Source: Blastococcus capsensis (GTDB taxonomy: Bacteria; Actinomycetota; Actinomycetes; Mycobacteriales; Geodermatophilaceae). From it: 64,000 bases of DNA. Made by a program: the position numbers and the translations under genes. The notes under the pieces were generated by a model that had not been told where the DNA came from, made no database searches, and was given only the letters and a program-made list of their open reading frames with translations. Within the stretch, counting starts at the first letter, position 1, and the number at the start of each line of letters is the position of its first letter. The stretch spans positions 1 through 64,000 of the forward strand of contig NZ_JASNNW010000015.1 in assembly GCF_030165005.1 (NCBI RefSeq). Direction: 5' to 3'. Shown here piece by piece: positions 10,067 through 20,228 of this stretch.

Positions 10067-11464
10067 TCACCGCGTCGAGTCGGGGGTCGCCTCGAGCGGG
10101 GGAGGGCCGGCCGCGCCGGCGGGGTATTCCAGCAGCGGCACGGCGCCCTGCGCCCACGCCTGCAGCACCGGGTCGACGATCCGCCAGGCCTGCTCGGCCT
10201 CCTCGCCGCTCACCGAGAGTCGGCTGCCGCCGGACAGCAGATCGGTCAGCACCCGGCCGTACGCGGTGCGCTCGCCCGGGGCGGTCACCTGCACACCGGG
10301 CTGCCGGTTCTCCTCCGGCGCATCGAGCTCGATCCACAGCCGGTCGGCCGCCACCCGCTCGGCGTCATGCGGGTCGCACGCCGGCGCGGCGGTCCGGAAG
10401 TGGAGGCCCACCCCCTTGCGGAGCGTGCCCATCGCCTTTCCGGTGCGGAGGACGAACCGGGTGCCGGTCCACCGAGGGGTGGCCACCTCCAGGAGCAGCT
10501 CGGCGTAGGTCTCGGTGCCGCGAGCGGGGTCGACGCCGTCCTCGTCGGTGTACCCGGGCACGGCCCGACCGCCGGTCGCGCCCGCCCCCGTCAGCCTCCC
10601 GGCGGTGTAGCGGGCCCGGCGGGTCCGGTGGGAGACCTCCGCGGCGGAGAGCACTCGGACCGACCGGAGCAGGTCGAGCTTGGCTGCATGCAGCTCGCTC
10701 TCGGTCTGCCGGGCCGGCAGCTCCATCGCGAGGAGAGTCAGAGCTTGGAGCATGTGGTTCTGCATCACGTCCCGGACGGCGCCGTTCCGATCGTAGAAGT
10801 TCGCCCGGCCCTCGAGCCCCAGCGTCTCCTCCCACAGCACGTCGACCTGCGCGATGGAGGCGCTGTTCCAGACGGGGGCCAGCGAGTGGCCGGGCGCATG
10901 CAGGTCGAGCAGCGCCTGCACCGTCGGCATCCCGAGGAAGTGGTCGACGCGGAACGCAGCCTCCTCGATGCCGCCGGTCACGCGGGCGAGCAGCTCGTTC
11001 AGTGCCACCGCGCTCGCCAGATCGGTACCGAATGGCTTCTCCACCGCGATGCGGCTGCCGGCCGGTAGCTCCGCGCCGCCGAGCGCGCCCAGCATCGCCG
11101 GGAACAGTGCCGGGGGCAGGGCCAGGTAGACCGCTACCGCAGCCCGGTCGGGGGCATCGCCGCCGTCCTCGAAGGCGCGCACCGCGGCGGCGACGGTGCC
11201 CGGCTGCCCGGGGTCGACGGCCTGGTACCGGAGGCGATCGACGAGCGCGGTGCGCACCTCGGTCGACACGTCCCCGGCGTGCTGCTCCAGCCGGGTGGCC
11301 ACGTGGGTCCGGAAGGTCCGGTCGTCCCAGTCCTGGTGGGCGCTGCCCACGACCTGCAGGCCGTCGGGTATCCGGCCGTCGGCCGACAGCCGGGCGAGCG
11401 CGGGCAGCAGGAACCGCCCGGCCAGGTCGCCCGTGGCACCGAGCAGGAGCAACCGGCCGATCAC
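10067..11464 (-). CDS. zwf: Glucose-6-phosphate dehydrogenase-like protein, divergent
   Basis: A 465-residue member of the G6PDH family. The NADP fold motif GATGDLAGR is at residues 8-16, EKPFG follows, the substrate motif appears as RVDHFLGMPTVQ and the general-base region as RDVMQNHM. Compared with the classical GDLAKRK and RIDHYLGKE motifs, the lysine after GDLA is Gly and the lysine of LGKE is Met. In characterised enzymes both lysines contact the sugar phosphate, so substrate or activity may differ. GTG 11464 has GAGGAG six bases upstream. No opcA, tal or pgl lies beside it, unlike a main pentose phosphate zwf. It is best seen as a paralogue. Confidence 0.75.
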   Translation of the reverse strand: MIGRLLLLGATGDLAGRFLLPALARLSADGRIPDGLQVVGSAHQDWDDRTFRTHVATRLEQHAGDVSTEVRTALVDRLRYQAVDPGQPGTVAAAVRAFEDGGDAPDRAAVAVYLALPPALFPAMLGALGGAELPAGSRIAVEKPFGTDLASAVALNELLARVTGGIEEAAFRVDHFLGMPTVQALLDLHAPGHSLAPVWNSASIAQVDVLWEETLGLEGRANFYDRNGAVRDVMQNHMLQALTLLAMELPARQTESELHAAKLDLLRSVRVLSAAEVSHRTRRARYTAGRLTGAGATGGRAVPGYTDEDGVDPARGTETYAELLLEVATPRWTGTRFVLRTGKAMGTLRKGVGLHFRTAAPACDPHDAERVAADRLWIELDAPEENRQPGVQVTAPGERTAYGRVLTDLLSGGSRLSVSGEEAEQAWRIVDPVLQAWAQGAVPLLEYPAGAAGPPPLEATPDSTR

Positions 11465-11796
11465 GAGCGCTCCTCGAGGGGTGGGACGGTCGGCGTCCGG
11501 GTCGGTCCGGGGTGTGGTCCGGGTCGGGCGGACTGCGGGGCTGTGACCATGGCACGACCATCCTCGCCGAGCCCCGCGACCGGCGCCCACGCGGCCGGGG
11601 AGGCGGTAGCGATGCCCTGACCAGCTACCGGCAGGTGCTCGGCGCGGCCGTCGCCGAGGCCGATGAGTGGAAAGAGCTGAGCGTCAGCACCCGACGTCGA
11701 AACTGATCGCTCAGCCGGAGCCCTGATGAGTCGGCGACCCCGCAGGTCGGCCGGCTCCACCGACGGTCCGGCTTCCGGGGGCCGCGGGCGGTTCCC
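11465..11796. other. Gene-poor interval upstream of zwf-like gene
   Basis: No convincing gene is seen. The minus-strand frame of the SpoIIE fragment stays open across this stretch but loses all family similarity. The region should carry the promoter of the zwf-like gene. Confidence 0.4.
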
Positions 11797-12044
11797 CGGG
11801 TGAGCCCGCGCGGCGAGCAGGGCGACGTCGTCGTCGAACGCCGCGCCCAGCTCGGCCAGCAGCGCGTCGCAGAGCTGGTCCAACGTGAGCCCGGCACGAG
11901 CGAGCGTGGTCGCCGCCGTCCGCAGCAGCTCCGTCCCGTCGTCGATGGAGGAGCCGCGTCGTTCCACGAGACCGTCGGTGTCGTGGACGACGGTCGACCC
12001 GGGCTGCAGCGGTGGTGCATCACCGTCGGGCAAAGGTGTTACAC
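11797..12044 (-). pseudogene. Decayed SpoIIE/PP2C phosphatase, C-terminal fragment
   Basis: The minus strand encodes a short piece that matches the last third of SpoIIE-type serine phosphatases: HDTDGLVERRG (the TDG metal motif), then LDQLCDALLAELG and DDDVALLAARAHPG. The intact relative at 16623-18758 has LYTDGLVERRG and DDDVALIAVRLH in the same order. The N-terminal sensor and the first half of the phosphatase domain are missing; the coding sequence is cut off at the vapB promoter. It therefore cannot be an active phosphatase. Confidence 0.7.
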
Positions 12045-12045
12045 T
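12040..12045 (+). promoter_or_regulatory. -10 element of a leaderless vapB transcript
   Basis: TACACT ends six bases before the GTG at 12052, so transcription should begin at or next to the start codon. No ribosome-binding site is present, consistent with a leaderless mRNA. Confidence 0.55.
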
Positions 12046-12051
12046 TCCGGG

Positions 12052-12315
12052 GTGCCCACCGCCCGACCGCGTCACATGGTCACCGAGACCGACGAGCTCG
12101 CCGTTGCTCTGGATGCTGCCGCTGCGCGTTGCCCAGGGCTCAGTCGTTCGCAACTGCTCACGAGGCTGGCACTCGACGGGCACCGGGCCGCGCAGCAGGC
12201 GCACGACGAGCGGCGGCGGCGGCGGCTCTCGGCCCTGCGGAGGCACAGCGGTGATCTGACCGGCGTCTACGGCTCCGGATATCTGGGGCGGCTGCGCGAA
12301 GAGTGGCCTGCGTGA
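12052..12315 (+). CDS. VapB-like antitoxin
   Basis: An 87-residue protein directly before a PIN toxin. The N-terminal half (TETDELAVALDAAAARCPGLSRSQLLTRLALDG) looks like a ribbon-helix-helix or related DNA-binding fold of VapB antitoxins. The C-terminal half, with a run of arginines, then GVYGSGYLGRLREEW, would wrap the toxin. Such proteins neutralise VapC and repress their own promoter. GTG 12052 is favoured by the -10 element just before it; ATG 12076 is an alternative without support. The stop overlaps the toxin start by four bases. The antitoxin class is assigned mainly from context. Confidence 0.7.
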   Translation: MPTARPRHMVTETDELAVALDAAAARCPGLSRSQLLTRLALDGHRAAQQAHDERRRRRLSALRRHSGDLTGVYGSGYLGRLREEWPA

Positions 12316-12698
12316 TCGTGCTGGATGCCAGCGTCCTCATCGCCTTCCTGGACGCCGAGGACGCCCAGCACGAGGCGGCGGTATCCCTGCTCGCCCGCGA
12401 GATCGACGATGAGTTCGCCGTCAACCCGCTGACGCTCGCGGAGGTGCTGGTCGCGCCCGCCCGGATCGGTCGTCTCGACGACACCCTCGCTGCCCTGCGA
12501 GACCTCGAGGTCCAGGAGCGGCCGTTTCCCTTCGACACCGCTGTCCGGCTCGCACAGCTGCGCGCCGGCACGGGTCTGCGGATGCCGGACTGCTGCGTCC
12601 TGCTCGCGGCCCAGGATGCGGCTGCCCGCGTCGCCGCCTTCGACGGCCGACTGGCGCAGGAAGCCGAAGGTGTCGGCCTCGTCGCGCTGCGCTCTTAG
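12312..12698 (+). CDS. VapC-family PIN domain toxin
   Basis: A 128-residue PIN-domain ribonuclease of the VapC type. All four acidic active-site positions can be seen: Asp in VLDAS near residue 4, Glu in NPLTLAEVL, Asp in MPDCCVLLAA and Asp in AFDGRL. VapC toxins cut tRNA or rRNA when the antitoxin is degraded. GTG 12312 forms a GTGA overlap with the antitoxin stop, so the pair is coupled; GTG 12303 would add three residues. Composition is like the neighbours, with no sign of very recent arrival. Confidence 0.85.
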   Translation: MIVLDASVLIAFLDAEDAQHEAAVSLLAREIDDEFAVNPLTLAEVLVAPARIGRLDDTLAALRDLEVQERPFPFDTAVRLAQLRAGTGLRMPDCCVLLAAQDAAARVAAFDGRLAQEAEGVGLVALRS

Positions 12699-12864
12699 CA
12701 CCGAACTCGGGCAATCACCGCTCGGCTGCGGTCCGGTGCCGACGAAAGTCCGGCGACAGGCGGTGACCCTATGGAGCTGTGGCCGGGATGAGGTGCGGCC
12801 ACCGCTCCGTTCTCGCGCAGCCGTTGCACCGCTGGCGTACGCAGCTCGGGTCGCATTCCGACGC

Positions 12865-12870
12865 TACGGT
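12865..12870 (+). promoter_or_regulatory. -10 element of the Phd/PIN chimera gene
   Basis: TACGGT ends seven bases before ATG 12878 and no ribosome site is present, so this gene may also be leaderless. Confidence 0.4.
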
Positions 12871-12877
12871 CCGCTAC

Positions 12878-13294
12878 ATGAGGTCGGTGACGCACCGGGA
12901 GATGCGCAACAACAGCGGAGACATCCTGCGGGCGGTGGCGGCGGGGGAGTCCGTGCAGGTGACCAACGACGGTCAGCCGGCCGCAGTGATCGTGCCGCCA
13001 GCCGGCGCCACGATCGAGGACCTGGTGGCGCAGGGGCAGGCGCGTGCGGCCAACCGTCATCCCGGCGACATCGACCTGTCTGCGGTCGGCGTCGTGCTGG
13101 ATACGGTCACGCTGGTCGATCTGACACGCGGTGACCTACTGACGGCCGGGGCGTTGCCCGGCCGGCTGCGCTCGAACGACGCAATACACCTGGCTGTCGC
13201 CCTGCGGGTCGGGGTGGACGAGATGCTCACCTACGGCTCGGAGTTGGCCGCGGCTGCAGGCGCGTCGGGACTGGCCGTCGCCCGTCCGGCCTGA
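12878..13294 (+). CDS. Phd-type antitoxin fused to a PIN toxin remnant
   Basis: A 138-residue chimera. Residues 1-50 are a good Phd/YefM-type antitoxin N-terminus (VTHREMRNNSGDILRAVAAG, then GQPAAVIVPP). From about residue 70 the sequence is the C-terminal half of a PIN toxin: LRSNDAIHLAVALRVG, then DEMLTYGSELAAAAG and GLAVARPA. The N-terminal PIN strand with the first catalytic Asp and the middle Glu are absent, and the usual final Asp in TYDxxLA is Gly. An internal deletion that joined antitoxin and toxin in frame explains it. The product may still bind DNA but should not be a nuclease. Confidence 0.7.
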   Translation: MRSVTHREMRNNSGDILRAVAAGESVQVTNDGQPAAVIVPPAGATIEDLVAQGQARAANRHPGDIDLSAVGVVLDTVTLVDLTRGDLLTAGALPGRLRSNDAIHLAVALRVGVDEMLTYGSELAAAAGASGLAVARPA

Positions 13295-13503: not shown

Positions 13504-15752
13504 TCACCGGGTCCTCAGCTTGGCCCGGTACATGGCTGCGTCGGCCCGGGCGATCAGCGCCGCGGGGTCGTCGGCATCCCGGGGGAAGAGCGCCGCGCCG
13601 GAACTGGCGCTGATCCGGAGCGCCGAGCCGTCCTGCTCGAACGGGTCCGCGAGGGCGGAGTGCAGGTGTTCCTGCACCCGCCGGACCGTCTCGTCCGCGG
13701 TGGAGGATTCCCCGCCGGCCGGCCATGCTCCGTCGGTCGCCGGGAGGCCGGCGAGGACGACGAGGAACTCGTCGCCGCCGAGGCGGCCGAGGAGGTCACC
13801 GGCGCGGATGGCCGAACGGAGCCGGGTCGCTGCCCAGACCAGCGCGGAATCGCCGACGGCGTGGCCGAAGCGGTCGTTGACGGCCTTGAACCCGTTGAGG
13901 TCCAGCAGTACCGCCGCCACGCTCATGCCGTTCCGCCGGGCTCGTCGCAGCTCCAGCGCCAGGTGCTCGAGGAGGTGCGCCCGGTTGGGCAGTGCGGTCA
14001 GTCCGTCGTGGTGTGCGAGGTACGCCGTCCGCCGTTCCCGGTCGACGCGTGCGGTGACGTCGAGCTGGTTGCCGATGTAGTGCGTGATCTCGCCGTCCGC
14101 ACTGCGGACGGCGCTGATGCGCACCTCGTTCCAGAAGGCCGAGCCGTCGCGCCGGTAGTTCAGCAGGACGGCGTGGACGTCGCGGCCGGCGAGGATCCGT
14201 CGGCGGATCGGGTGCACCTGGCTCGTGTCGGTGTCCGAGCCCTGGAGAAAGCGGCAGTTGCGACCGAGGACCTCTGCCTCGGCGTAGCCGGTGATGCGCA
14301 GGAACGCCGCGTTGACGTAGACCAGCGGGAGATCGGGCAGGCGCGCGTCGGCGATGACGATGCCGTTGCTGGCGACGGCGACCGCCCGGAGCATCAGATC
14401 GGGCAGGTCGTCGTGGGCGACGCGTAGGAGCGCACCGTCGGCACGGTGGTCGGCGGCCGCCGGCGAGGGGACCGTTCCGTTGGTCATGGGGCGCACCTTC
14501 TCCAGCAACGGGCCGGCCGCGTCGAATACGCGCTGCCGGTCGTAGGTCAGCACGTAGTCGAGCCGACGCGCAGCGGGGTCGGCACGACCCCTGACACCGA
14601 CCTCATCACTTCGCCCGTCCGCCGGGGCCTCGCGCGCGGCCAGCGCGGCAGCGAAGTGCGGGCTGACGACCGTGACCACCCACTGGTCGGCCAGCGGGTC
14701 GTCGGAATCGAGCGCGGTGCCCACCACGCCCGGAGCGGGCTCATCGGGCATCCCCACCCCGGTCACGGCTGTCAGGGCGGTGACACTGCCGAGCGTCTCG
14801 TACCGGCGGCGGGTGCGCGCGTTCATGAGGTTCGCGTGCTGGCAGTTCGCGAGGACGACGGTCTGCTCGTCCAGGAGCAGGGCCTGGCGCTCGAGTTGGC
14901 GGGTCATCGAGGCGAGGAGCGGCACGCTGGTGCGCCGCGCACCCGACGCGGCGGCGAGGACCGCGAACGGCGTGCGCGCCGGCTCCGTCGCAGCGGCCTC
15001 GACGGTGGGAGCGGCCGGCCGGAGGCGCAGCGGCCGCATACCGGCCGGGAGCAGCGCATCCGGGCGCCCGAACATCCATCCCTGACCGAGTCGCGCTCCC
15101 ATCGCGAGGGCACGCTCGAGGTGCTGCTCGGTCTCGATCCCCTCGGCCAGGACGACCGCACCCGAGCGCTCCGCCTCGGCGCGCACGGCGTTGACCACGC
15201 CCGCGGCCTGCAGGCTCGTGCGATCGCGCACCAGGGCCAGGTCCAGCTTGATGACGTCCGGTCGGAGGAACGACACGAGCGCGAGTCCGGCGGGCTCGGC
15301 CCCGACGTCGTCGAGTGCCACCCGCCACCCGCCACCCGCCACCCGATCTCCCGCGCATCCCGTATCCCGCGGACGAGGTCGGCGGGGCGTTCCAGCAGGT
15401 CGCGCTCGGTCACTTCGAGCACGACCTGCACGAGGGGAGGTGTGAGTTGACCCAGCACGGCCAGGTCGGAGGGCGAGAGCGTGGCGAGCGTCGCCGGTTC
15501 GACGTTCACGAACAGCGTGGTGACCTCGGCGACTCCTGTCACCCCGCGCAGTGCGGACCGCAGGCACGCCTCGTCCAGCGCCGCGGTCGTCCCGGCCGCG
15601 GCCGCGGCCGAGAACAACTGCGATGGCGACTCCAGGGGGCCCGGTTTTCCTCGGGACAGCGCTTCCACGGCTACCAGGGAACCGTCGTACAGATCGACGA
15701 TCGGCTGGAACAGCGATCGCACCGGTAGCCCCAGGAGTTCTGGCGGGGTCAT
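13504..15752 (-). pseudogene. EAL-DICT-LOV-GGDEF cyclic-di-GMP enzyme, out of frame at a 7-bp repeat
   Basis: From ATG 15752 one frame encodes the first part of an EAL domain (VEALSRG, FVNVEP, LEVTERD). At 15317-15344 the frame is lost in a (GCCACCC)x4 tract; the other frame then continues VALDDVG, IKLDLALV, LAEGIE and runs to 13504. Later domains are a DICT-like sensory segment, a LOV domain with GRNCRFLQG (flavin-adduct Cys) and FWNEV, and a GGDEF domain with RLGGDEF and an RAGD inhibitory site five residues before it. A full product would make and/or degrade c-di-GMP under blue-light control. As read, ribosomes from 15752 stop at 14904 after 282 residues. Confidence 0.8.
15317..15344. repeat. 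Heptanucleotide tandem repeat (GCCACCC)x4 within coding sequence
   Basis: Four perfect copies of GCCACCC lie end to end inside the EAL coding region. A unit of seven is not a multiple of three, so each copy gained or lost changes the reading frame. Two copies give the natural EAL sequence EIGWRVALDDVG in one frame, and five copies would also be in frame; the four present are not. Confidence 0.9.
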
Positions 15753-16622: not shown

Positions 16623-18758
16623 TCAGTCCGCGGGCACGTTCGGTGGCACCCGGGTCGGCCCCGCTTCGGCCGGCCGGGGCCGGTCCTGGCGGTGCAGCCG
16701 GACGGCGATCAGCGCGACGTCGTCGTCGGGGATGGCCGGCAGCATCTGGGCCAGCACCTCGTCGACGAGCTCGTCGAGGTCGCGGCCGACCAGCCCGGCC
16801 AGGGTCGCCTGCAGCCGTGCCAAGCCGTCGTCGAGGTCCTCGCCGCGGCGCTCGACGAGACCGTCGGTGTAGAGCAGGACCACCGCGTCACGATCGAGGG
16901 TGGTCACCGACTCCCGTCGGGTGGCGGAGGGGTCCACGCCGAGCAGCAGGTCGGCGCGCTCGGCGGTGAGGACCTCCACCCGTCCGTCGGCGGTCAGGAT
17001 CATCGGCGGGGGATGCCCGGCGTTCGACCAGCGCAGCCGGGTCAGCCCCTGCTCGCGCTCTCCCTCGGTCTGTTCGAGACGGGCGACGACGGCCGTGGCC
17101 AGGATCGCCGATCGGAGGGTCTGCATGACCCGGTCGGCCTGGGCGACGACGGCGGCGGGTCCGTCGTCGTCGCGGGCGCCCAACGTGCGCACGATGGTGC
17201 GGATCTGACCCATCGCCGCGGCCGCTTGGGTGTCGTGCCCGACGACGTCGCCGATGACCAGCGCGGTGGCCCCGCCGGGTTGGAGGAAGGCGTCGTACCA
17301 GTCTCCGCCGACCTCGGCGGCCTGGGCGGCCGGGACGTAACGGACCACGATCTGCCCGTGGTCGGGTTGGGGAGGGGCGGTCAGCAGCGACCGCTGGAAG
17401 CCCTCGGCCAGGTCGCGCTGCTGCCGGTAGAGGCGGGCGTTGTCCAGGACGAGGCCGGCGCGGTCGGCGACGTGCCGGACCGTGACCAGGTCCTCGGGGG
17501 TGAACGGTCCCCGCCCGGCGCCGTTGCACACGGTCAGCAAGCCGACCGGACCGGTGCGGCCGGGCAGCGGGAGGACGGCGAGCGCCTCGGGGGAGAGAGC
17601 GGCCATCAGATCCCGCGCCGGCCGGGTCGCCAGCATGTCCTGCGCGGCAGCCGCCGCGCCGGTGGGCAGGTGCTGGGCATGCCCGGTGCGCAGGGCGCGG
17701 ATGACGATCGCGTCGTCGTCCAAGGCCGACAGCCGGGACTGCGCGTAGGCCTCGGCGGTGCCGCGCAGAGCGGGATCGGCGTGCCAGGAGGCAGCGGCCC
17801 GCAACCCGCGACGGTCGCCTGCGGCGGAGGTGTCGTCGATCAGGGTGACGATGCACCAGTCGGCGACCGCGGGGGTGATCAGCCGCGCCAGCCGGGTGGC
17901 GGCATCGTCGGCGTCCAGGGTGCCGGCGAGGTTCTCGGTGATCCGGCTGAGCAGGTGCTGGCGGGCGGCGGCCCGCTCGGCCTGCTGGGCGGCCAGGGCG
18001 CGGGCGGTGATGTCGACGAAGTGCAGCGCGATCCCGGCCGGGCCCGGTACGGCTCGCACCTCGAGCCAGACGTCGAGCGGCTCGGGGTAGTAGGCATCCA
18101 GGGCCTGGGTCCGGCCGGTGGCCGCGGCGCGGCGGTAGTGCTCCTCGAACTCGGTGCCGACGGTGGCGGGGAACTGCTCCCACAGCGTCCTGCCCAGCAG
18201 CTGGTCGCGTGGGCGGCCGGCGATGCGCTCGGCCTCGGTGTTGACGTGGGTGATCACCCAGTCGTGGTCCATGGCGACGAACCCGACCGCCATCGAGTCG
18301 ACGATCTGGGCGATGTGCTCCTGCTCGGCGCGCCGTTCGGTGATGTCCCAGGCTGCGCCGATCACCCGCACGGTGGTCCCGGCCTCATCGGCCAGCGCGC
18401 GGCCGCGGGCGGCCAGCCACCGGGTGCCCCCGTCGGGGAGGGCCACCCGGTACTCCGCGGAGTACTCCCCGACGGTGTCGACCGCGTGCTGCAGCAGGGC
18501 GGTGACCCGGTCGATGTCCTCCGGGTGCACCCGGGCGGTGAACGACTCGAAGCTCCGGTCGAAAGAGGCGGGGTGGTAGCCGAACAGCTCGATCAGCCGC
18601 TCGTCCCAGCCCAGGTCGTCGGCGGCGAGGACCCAGTCGAACATGCCGACGCCGGCCGCGGTCACCGCCAGGTCCAGCAGGGCTCGGCGTGCTGCATCCG
18701 GCTCCCCGGGCAGCTCGGGCACCTGTGTCGCAGGCGTGTCGCCACCGTGCTCGCTCAT
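16623..18758 (-). CDS. PAS-PAS-GAF-SpoIIE (PP2C) serine phosphatase
   Basis: A 711-residue signalling phosphatase of the RsbU/P type. Two PAS domains (about residues 25-150 and 150-265; motifs WDITERRAEQ and HFVDITARA), a GAF domain (about 280-430) and a C-terminal SpoIIE-type PP2C domain (about 475-700). The metal-binding motifs are intact: GGDWYDAF, GDVVGHDTQAAAAMG, LYTDGLVERRG and DDDVALIAVRLH. Such enzymes dephosphorylate STAS anti-sigma antagonists in response to a signal sensed by PAS or GAF. ATG 18758 has GGAG just upstream. A RsbW-like ATPase is the next gene upstream on the same strand, which supports a partner-switching role. Confidence 0.85.
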   Translation of the reverse strand: MSEHGGDTPATQVPELPGEPDAARRALLDLAVTAAGVGMFDWVLAADDLGWDERLIELFGYHPASFDRSFESFTARVHPEDIDRVTALLQHAVDTVGEYSAEYRVALPDGGTRWLAARGRALADEAGTTVRVIGAAWDITERRAEQEHIAQIVDSMAVGFVAMDHDWVITHVNTEAERIAGRPRDQLLGRTLWEQFPATVGTEFEEHYRRAAATGRTQALDAYYPEPLDVWLEVRAVPGPAGIALHFVDITARALAAQQAERAAARQHLLSRITENLAGTLDADDAATRLARLITPAVADWCIVTLIDDTSAAGDRRGLRAAASWHADPALRGTAEAYAQSRLSALDDDAIVIRALRTGHAQHLPTGAAAAAQDMLATRPARDLMAALSPEALAVLPLPGRTGPVGLLTVCNGAGRGPFTPEDLVTVRHVADRAGLVLDNARLYRQQRDLAEGFQRSLLTAPPQPDHGQIVVRYVPAAQAAEVGGDWYDAFLQPGGATALVIGDVVGHDTQAAAAMGQIRTIVRTLGARDDDGPAAVVAQADRVMQTLRSAILATAVVARLEQTEGEREQGLTRLRWSNAGHPPPMILTADGRVEVLTAERADLLLGVDPSATRRESVTTLDRDAVVLLYTDGLVERRGEDLDDGLARLQATLAGLVGRDLDELVDEVLAQMLPAIPDDDVALIAVRLHRQDRPRPAEAGPTRVPPNVPAD

Positions 18759-18938
18759 GCTCTCCGTCGCCCCACGTCCACCGCGGCCGCAGCCCGGCCG
18801 CACACGCCTTGTCGGGCGGCGGCCTGCTCATTGTGGAGGATGTCGCGGACCGCCTGGGCCACGTCGTGACATCGCCGTCGCTGGCGGCCGGTCGTCTCCC
18901 CGGACCTGGCGCGCAGCCCTGCCCGGGCGCCGGGTGGG

Positions 18939-19385
18939 TCAGTCGGAGGCAAGACTGATGCAGGCCCAGACGTGCTTGCGCATCCCGGCGGCCGCCCACC
19001 CGTGGGCGGCGGCGAGCCGGGCGATCAGGTACAGGCCCAGTCCGCCGAGTGCGGGGTCGCGGTCGATCGCCGGTATCGGCGGATGGTCGGGACGGGCGTC
19101 GCTGACGTCGATGAGCCAGCCGGAGGAGCACCCGGTCACCGTGACGACGATCGGCTGACCGCTGTGTCGCAGCCCGTTGGAGGCGAGCTCCTCGAAGGCC
19201 AGCATCAGCCGGTCGACGTCGTCGACGTCTGCGCCTTCGGGCAGCCCGTCGCCGGCCAGGTCGTCGCGGAGGCTCCCGCGCGCGGCAGTGAGCTGAGCCG
19301 GGCGGTCGATCGTCCAGCGCCACACCCGGTCGACCCGGTCACTGACATCCGGCGGCGGAAGCTGCTGCCAGGGCTCCGTGCTCAT
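18939..19385 (-). CDS. RsbW-like ATP-binding protein (anti-sigma kinase fold)
   Basis: A 148-residue GHKL ATPase of the RsbW/SpoIIAB type. The N box is LAFEELASNGLRHSG near residue 68, and DPALGGLGLYLIARLA carries the G box. These proteins bind a sigma factor or phosphorylate a STAS antagonist. AGGAG lies a few bases before ATG 19385. A decayed SpoIIE frame ends at 19382 and overlaps this start, suggesting the gene once followed a phosphatase in an operon. The partner sigma factor or STAS protein is not adjacent; the SigF locus is 17 kb away. Confidence 0.8.
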   Translation of the reverse strand: MSTEPWQQLPPPDVSDRVDRVWRWTIDRPAQLTAARGSLRDDLAGDGLPEGADVDDVDRLMLAFEELASNGLRHSGQPIVVTVTGCSSGWLIDVSDARPDHPPIPAIDRDPALGGLGLYLIARLAAAHGWAAAGMRKHVWACISLASD

Positions 19386-19494
19386 CTGCTCCTGCGGTCC
19401 GTGTGCGGCCTCTGTTCGACCTGTGCCATGTCCGTTCCCACGCGGTCCGGGGATGGTCCCGGCCGGTCGCCGACCCACCCCGAAGGGGCGGGTG

Positions 19495-19591
19495 AGGTCC
19501 GTGGACCGGCCTTCGGCGACCGGGGCTGCTCCCCGCGGTGCAGGCGGACCGCGACCCGCGCGACGTCGTCGCCGGTCGCCGTCCACCAGTC
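19495..19591 (-). pseudogene. SpoIIE C-terminal fragment upstream of the ATPase gene
   Basis: The minus strand reads TGDDVARVAVRLHRGEQPR, a degraded form of the DDDVALIAVRLH end of SpoIIE phosphatases. The rest of the phosphatase is gone. The frame stays open to a stop at 19382-19384, overlapping the ATPase start. It is a short remnant and cannot act as an enzyme. Confidence 0.5.
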
Positions 19592-19878
19592 GTTCGACGA
19601 CACGGTCGCACGCCGGGTGCCGAGCCCGCCCGGCGAGGTGGCGCAGTGTGGTCCTCGACAGGGACGGCCGGCCGACGACCGGATCGTGGCCGGCTGGTCG
19701 TGGCGGCGGCAGCCGATCCTCGATCCGGCAGTGCTCACAGCCGCGAGCAGCCGGCAGCTGCGCGGGTCGGAGGGCGGGCGCGTGCCCGTACGATCGACCG
19801 GTCTCGGGACGTCGCCCTGTGTCCCCGCTATCGGAGGAGTTCGTGACTCCCCGACGACGTGGCCGATGTCGTCGCCGG

Positions 19879-20228
19879 GTGGAGCGCGCGATCGCCACCC
19901 ACGGTGCCTACGACACCGAGTACCGGGTCGTGCTCGCCGACGGCCGGCACCGCTGGGTGGCCGCCCGCGGGCGGGTCGTGGGCGGCGAGGAGGGCAATCC
20001 CGCCCGCCTCATCGGCGTGGCCCACGACACCACCGCCCGCTGGCGCAGTTCGCGGGTCAGGACCTCGACGAACTGTGCGATCAGTTGCTGGCCCGCATGC
20101 TGCCCGCCGAGGTGGACGACGACGTCGCGCTGATCGCGGTGCGGCTGCACCCACGCGACGCGCGCCCTGCGTCGGCGGACTCGGACGGCGCTCCGGGCGA
20201 GGCCCCCTGCGCCGCCCTGCCCAGTTGA
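19879..20228 (+). pseudogene. PAS-SpoIIE phosphatase remnant with internal deletion and frameshift
   Basis: The plus strand first encodes part of a PAS domain (YDTEYRVVLADGRHRWVAAR, then LIGVAHDTTA), then after a change of frame near 20044 the end of a SpoIIE domain (GQDLDELCDQLLARMLPAE, DDDVALIAVRLHPRD). The same two blocks are about 550 residues apart in the intact protein at 16623-18758. GAF and most of the phosphatase are therefore deleted. It points in the opposite direction to the intact copy. Confidence 0.65.

Follow-up and report, generated by a model that had tools for sequence, protein, structure and literature searches.

The window analysed here, 64,000 nucleotides of Blastococcus capsensis DNA (contig NZ_JASNNW010000015.1, positions 1 to 64,000), carries on its minus strand a gene that is split between two reading frames (Table 1). 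The frame opened by the ATG at 15752 ends at a TGA (14906-14904), and the frame that continues the domains is open over the entire downstream half. The frames change at four perfect units of GCCACCC, which read as GGGTGGC on the coding strand (minus strand 15350-15301, GAGATC (GGGTGGC)x4 ACTCGACGACGTCGGG). Tandem Repeats Finder, run on the window, returned 15317-15345 with a period of 7, 4.1 copies and 100% matches, and the two-unit pattern gave three overlapping matches in the window compared to 0.01 expected by chance. The assertion of the earlier note that a heptamer tract splits this gene is borne out by repeat finding, ORFs and Pfam alike, and its frame arithmetic for the copy number was upheld by the ORF analysis. 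Its statement that two or five copies restore the EAL reading holds for two copies; five copies restore the frame but add seven residues before the Asp-Asp motif, the residues of which we take to be metal-binding. No additional stop codon was found in the upstream or the downstream half of the split gene, and a promoter and terminator scan gave no match. As a tandem repeat inside a reading frame, with a unit length that is no multiple of three, the tract has the make-up of a contingency locus; at the same time, the frame is broken relative to intact orthologues, as in a pseudogene.

Table 1. Position and content of the split gene, its tandem tract and the associated reading frames.
Feature	Coordinates	Strand	Content
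Upstream half of split gene	15345..15752	-	Start codon and N-terminal EAL up to the tract; VEAL, FVNVEP, LEVTER
Tandem tract (GCCACCC)x4	15317..15344		Two additional units (14 bp) compared to the six closest orthologues
ORF read in the four-unit state	14904..15752	-	282 codons; N-terminal EAL and out-of-frame tail
Downstream half, other frame	13504..15315	-	C-terminal EAL, DICT, LOV, GGDEF; RAGD I-site, RLGGDEF
Possible re-initiated ORF	13504..14907	-	467 codons; partial DICT, LOV, GGDEF, no EAL; expression would be conjectural

Were the break at the tract absent, the gene would encode an EAL-DICT-LOV-GGDEF protein. The Pfam EAL match is divided at the tract into profile positions 16-150 on the upstream piece and 151-236 (of 236) on the downstream piece, and as the tract splits the domain, a continuous EAL domain with catalytic motifs is not encoded by this gene in the present genome. 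Downstream of the second EAL piece, Pfam places DICT, PAS/LOV and GGDEF, in this order. The downstream half contains the LOV cysteine motif and its companions (GRNCRFLQG, NYRRDG, WNEVRIS and GNQLDV), among them the positions that presumably bind the flavin, and it aligns to LOV structures; the pattern reads GRNCRFLQG, NYRRDGSAFWNEV, GNQLDV, followed by RAGDLLGRLGGDEF, in which the GGDEF signature and the RxxD I-site of a diguanylate cyclase are found (Pfam GGDEF, E 1e-39). The best PDB match of this half is a diguanylate cyclase, 8c05 (E 2.6e-45), which we take to be the LOV-activated diguanylate cyclase LadC, with many LOV domains next. The LOV, DICT, GGDEF and I-site motifs are all intact in sequence and by Pfam, in line with what the earlier note had claimed, and from such motifs blue-light sensing and c-di-GMP turnover are predicted.

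A second gene of this type is encoded elsewhere in the same genome (contig C8; 814 codons from stop to stop). This paralogue is intact, with the Pfam order EAL, DICT, PAS(LOV), GGDEF, a continuous EAL domain (profile 3-236 of 236) and both GRNCRFLQ and RLGGDEF; the heptamer tract was not seen in its translation. Since an intact paralogue with the same Pfam order is present, loss of the split gene may be tolerated. In a syntenic relative (G021), the corresponding interval holds gene pieces only (80-90% identity), located between long flanks matching at 83-87%. This remnant shows that the gene can be lost; it is uninformative on copy number, because the tract-bearing part is missing there. Several other genes in the neighbourhood are partial. 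A C-terminal SpoIIE fragment (11464-12246, minus strand, profile 119-191 of 192) lies beside the split gene and a PAS_3 fragment (19378-20133, plus strand, profile 27-89 of 89) on its other side, and complete versions of such domains are found in a PAS-GAF-SpoIIE gene at 16626-18803. The frame at 12779-13291 (plus strand) begins as a Phd-type antitoxin (profile 1-42 of 74; 29.6 bits, just under the Pfam cut-off of 29.8) and continues as the C-terminal portion of a PIN domain (41-118 of 120), as if a deletion had fused a toxin-antitoxin pair. At 12303-12698 lies a PIN-domain gene that is nearly complete.

The family search matched the gene at E <= 1e-40 in 23 of 112 genomes. These are the present genome, 14 genomes with a full-length orthologue (out of the 111 other family genomes), the one with the remnant (G021) and seven weaker ones that were discounted as matches to paralogues or domains (G039, G050, G075, G083, G093, G106 and G108; 168-186 bits). 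More distant paralogue-type matches (L046-L054) were left out of the copy-number comparison. All 14 orthologues read in a single frame from the EAL motif through ALDD and the LOV motif to GGDEF, including that of G049, which matches as two pieces and is one open frame; the strict FVNV-type pattern was matched in one of the 14. The six closest orthologues belong to genomes of one genus (g9), and four of them score identically to named loci of Modestobacter, including M. caceresii (L037).

In these six genes, the residues GWRVA before the EAL Asp-Asp motif are encoded by two near-identical heptamers, differing at one base (GGC TGG CGG GTG GCG CTG GAC GAC). The Gly codon in the window is GGG, a synonymous third-base difference from the six, and for this reason the heptamer units are identical here. 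The two-heptamer spelling is found in 6 of the 14 orthologues, and the other eight are spelled differently with an equal number of residues. In all 14, GW is followed by two residues and by LDD preceded by A (GWx[VI]ALDD) with no insert, and neither a third unit nor a seven-residue insert nor any other length from GW to ALDD was found among them. A natural counterpart therefore exists here for the two-unit form only. The comparison of copy number among relatives, from which the earlier note had expected variation at a switching locus, went against it: there was no variation and no scar, and the site is equally long in each of the 14 full-length orthologues, in which the tract is neither conserved nor length-variable. 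Within the genus, a run of three units was found in 1 of 23 genomes, namely in the present one and at this place only (backward-read control, 0 of 23). This genus is probably Blastococcus, as G017, another of its members, gives the same match statistics as Blastococcus sp. LR1.

The reading favoured here, at a probability of about 0.64, is that the frame-breaking four-unit tract originated from a recent slip of replication in codons already resembling a repeat. One silent change of the Gly third base would have produced a perfect two-unit repeat, to which slippage would have added two units, 14 bp in total. The EAL domain would thereby have been broken just before the Asp-Asp motif, and the product is likely an inactive EAL stub, so that in this genome the enzyme is presumably off or, at a minimum, has no functional EAL domain. 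Such a history would illustrate clearly how a catalytic motif prone to repeats can, in G+C-rich DNA, become a frameshifting tract through a silent change and subsequent slippage. Other EAL genes with GWRVA before the Asp-Asp motif may be predisposed to the same slip. Simple slippage has to be weighed against the intact state of the remaining gene and against the appearance of the tract: four pure units of a length other than a multiple of three would also be expected of a young contingency locus.

The repair genes of the genome bear on how such a slip would persist. NucS is present (131.9 bits), and a MutS_V domain was not found in this assembly (99.95% complete) with a profile that was positive in 11 of 14 known genomes used as control. 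NucS was reported not to correct indels (PMC8228993), and a mycobacterial study proposed the missing MutS/L as one explanation of why frameshifts are frequent in homopolymer runs (PMC10159617). With NucS and without a MutS domain, slippage would be easier both to fix and to reverse. Reversion, which would proceed through loss of two units, is conceivable given that no MutS hit was obtained and that indels reportedly escape correction by NucS; nothing shows that reversals are frequent or selected.

The age of the break was assessed from dN/dS in an alignment of the 14 orthologues, with pairwise values for the six close ones and five others. For the downstream half, the window gene gave 0.28-0.32 with the six close orthologues compared to 0.20-0.34 among those six (15 pairs), and thus sits in the upper part of the range of the intact genes; for the upstream half, the values were 0.17-0.25 and 0.15-0.45, respectively. 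The dN to the outgroup (L009) was 0.205 for the downstream half, with 0.204 and 0.208 for two intact genes, and 0.338 for the upstream half, with 0.286 and 0.335 for the intact ones. Relaxed selection is not clear in either half, dN/dS being inside the range of intact genes. A protein tree built from the downstream half groups the window gene with the six g9 genes at 94/94 support, slightly short of the threshold set by the program; the window gene has a longer end branch there, 0.23 compared to a median of 0.13. As dN/dS in the two halves is much like that in intact genes, the break looks recent, and with a recent break dN/dS cannot separate a dead gene from a switching gene. The description "unlike old pseudogenes" in the earlier note is thus supported in so far as long-standing decay is not seen in the coding sequence. 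An old pseudogene was considered and is ruled out by the lack of further stops together with dN/dS in the intact range. Either the break would be recent or the gene would often be in frame, and the present data are consistent with both.

The frequency of comparable repeats was surveyed in 880,001 bases of this genome (about a fifth, on contigs that were hand-picked and not random) and in 418,001 bases each of two relatives (G006 and G021). Arrays of at least three copies, with a unit of 5-14 bases not divisible by three, numbered eight in this genome, none in G006 and four in G021, the latter all with a unit of 5 and approximately three copies. Arrays with a unit of 7-8 and at least four copies were found three times in the 880 kb of this genome versus none in the 836 kb of the two relatives; these small numbers count to some extent against simple slippage as a full account. 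Besides the present tract, the three comprise an 8x5 array on contig C1 (L150:13905-13944, CTGCGAGC x5) and a 7x4.9 array on contig C14 (L170:6336-6369, CCGCTGA x4.9), both perfect and, judged by eye, intergenic. A nine-base array that keeps the frame is present in the same genome as well (L158:17016-17114, AGGCGGCGG x11). A genome-wide enrichment of such tracts is only suggested by these counts, which are small and come from non-random stretches, and a set of gene-breaking tracts hinting at a phase-variable repertoire was not seen in this non-random fifth of the genome.

Across the class, 394 genomes were sampled for the heptamer; runs of at least three units were present in 10 of them, the present genome among these, and the control, the pattern read in reverse, likewise gave 10 rows. 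Two units are found in 45 of the 112 family genomes, with the control being commoner (about 60 rows). Since the control is as frequent as the heptamer, such slippage appears ordinary and the GCCACCC unit not special; a special role of the heptamer was rejected on these grounds, the control being equally or more frequent. In translations of one array each from the nine other class genomes with at least three units (a second array of G233 excluded), the EAL Asp-Asp motif was absent. One of these class genomes, G233, contains the heptamer in seven perfect units (contig C229:19367-19415). Nine two-unit loci were inspected, of which one is of EAL type (L233; G021 C1:1043969-1043982). This locus belongs to another EAL-type gene, in which GWRVALDDVG is encoded in frame from two perfect GGGTGGC units, and it may be a ready substrate for the same slip.

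An error could also underlie the four-unit tract. The true gene would then be in frame, and the tract would be an assembly or sequencing artefact or a variant acquired in laboratory culture. That the sequence is a single draft assembly of 51 contigs leaves room for this explanation, but the tract is pure and lies within a contig of 158 kb, and its 28 bases are shorter than ordinary reads, which should span it; an artefact is accordingly held to be improbable. A similarly low probability is given to a fission of the gene, in which re-initiation at ATGA would yield a LOV-GGDEF protein without EAL and convert a two-way enzyme into a one-way cyclase. The arrangement at the end of the stub is suited to this, since the stop at 14906-14904 overlaps the ATG at 14907, and the frame opened by this ATG runs through LOV and GGDEF to 13504. 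However, this ATG is part of a Ser-Met-Thr stretch in 13 of the 14 orthologues, so the overlap follows from ordinary coding and may be coincidence. In the orthologues, the first stop of the equivalent frame forms an ATGA overlap in 2 of 14 and a GTGA overlap in 8 of 14; 12 of these frames, all eight GTGA cases included, stop 37 or 61 bases past the site, and the two others reach ATGA at 409 and 277 bases. Furthermore, a purine-rich ribosome site is not evident by eye upstream of the putative new start, and this start would remove the first part of DICT. Coupling the fission to slippage would result in a heritable domain-splitting switch, toggling between the fused two-unit enzyme and a four-unit state with a dead EAL and an ATGA-started LOV-GGDEF cyclase. 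If true, a change in copy number would reverse how blue light acts on c-di-GMP, which goes beyond a simple off state; among the readings considered, this one is regarded as the least probable.

The earlier note had proposed a phase-variable switch. On this account, the copy number would change so frequently that a clonal population comprises ON (two-unit) and OFF (four-unit) cells, with heritable differences between cells in light-dependent c-di-GMP turnover. In its favour are the purity of the frame-shifting heptamer tract within an otherwise intact gene, the coding constraint still visible and the fact that no MutS domain was found. Moreover, reversible frameshift indels were reported in an actinobacterium, Mycobacterium tuberculosis (PMC8339072), and a c-di-GMP phosphodiesterase of Clostridioides difficile is reported to be phase-variable, in this case by DNA inversion (PMC9286219). 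On the other hand, neither a second copy number nor a scar was found in the 14 orthologues, the three-unit run is confined to 1 of 23 genomes of the genus, the tract has four units only, the syntenic relative has a remnant gene and the other two long arrays sampled appear not to break genes. A long-lived contingency locus in the family is unsupported for the species compared, the site being invariant in the 14 orthologues. The claim of phase variation thus lacks proof and loses weight through the invariant length of the site in all the orthologues compared, and we consider it an unlikely, though not far-fetched, account of the tract. If populations hold both copy numbers, a light-controlled second-messenger enzyme would be under repeat-driven phase variation.

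Whether read as a recent slip or as a switch, the locus can be set beside several known systems. Heptanucleotide and other simple-sequence-repeat contingency loci are known in Haemophilus and Neisseria, where they are reported to be variable. The tract shares with them a short tandem unit that is not a multiple of three, but it has four units here and no variant is known. In M. tuberculosis, population data are reported to reveal frame-breaking and frame-restoring indels as well as scars (PMC8339072). Both cases concern an actinobacterium in which an indel has broken a reading frame and another indel could mend it; the present case differs in that it comprises one genome and a heptamer tract, with no restored form or scar seen. 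A search of titles and abstracts, a scope outside which most subscription journals lie, found no report of repeat-driven phase variation of a light-controlled c-di-GMP enzyme. A review of variation in c-di-GMP genes, in the portion available, gives the C. difficile promoter switch as the reversible case and mentions no switch by a coding repeat (PMC10333796). PdcB of C. difficile is described as switching by inversion of a promoter-bearing segment, and this switching was demonstrated (PMC9286219). Like pdcB, the split gene is one of c-di-GMP turnover, here proposed as a heritable on/off unit; unlike it, the switching element would be a coding repeat. LadC is a LOV-activated diguanylate cyclase, the abstract of which mentions no EAL or DICT (PMC10396304). 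The order of LOV and then GGDEF is common to both proteins, whereas the present gene is split and encodes EAL and DICT ahead of LOV. A similar arrangement is found within the genome itself, where the paralogue on contig C8 shares the Pfam domain order with the split gene and differs from it by a single open frame and a continuous EAL domain.
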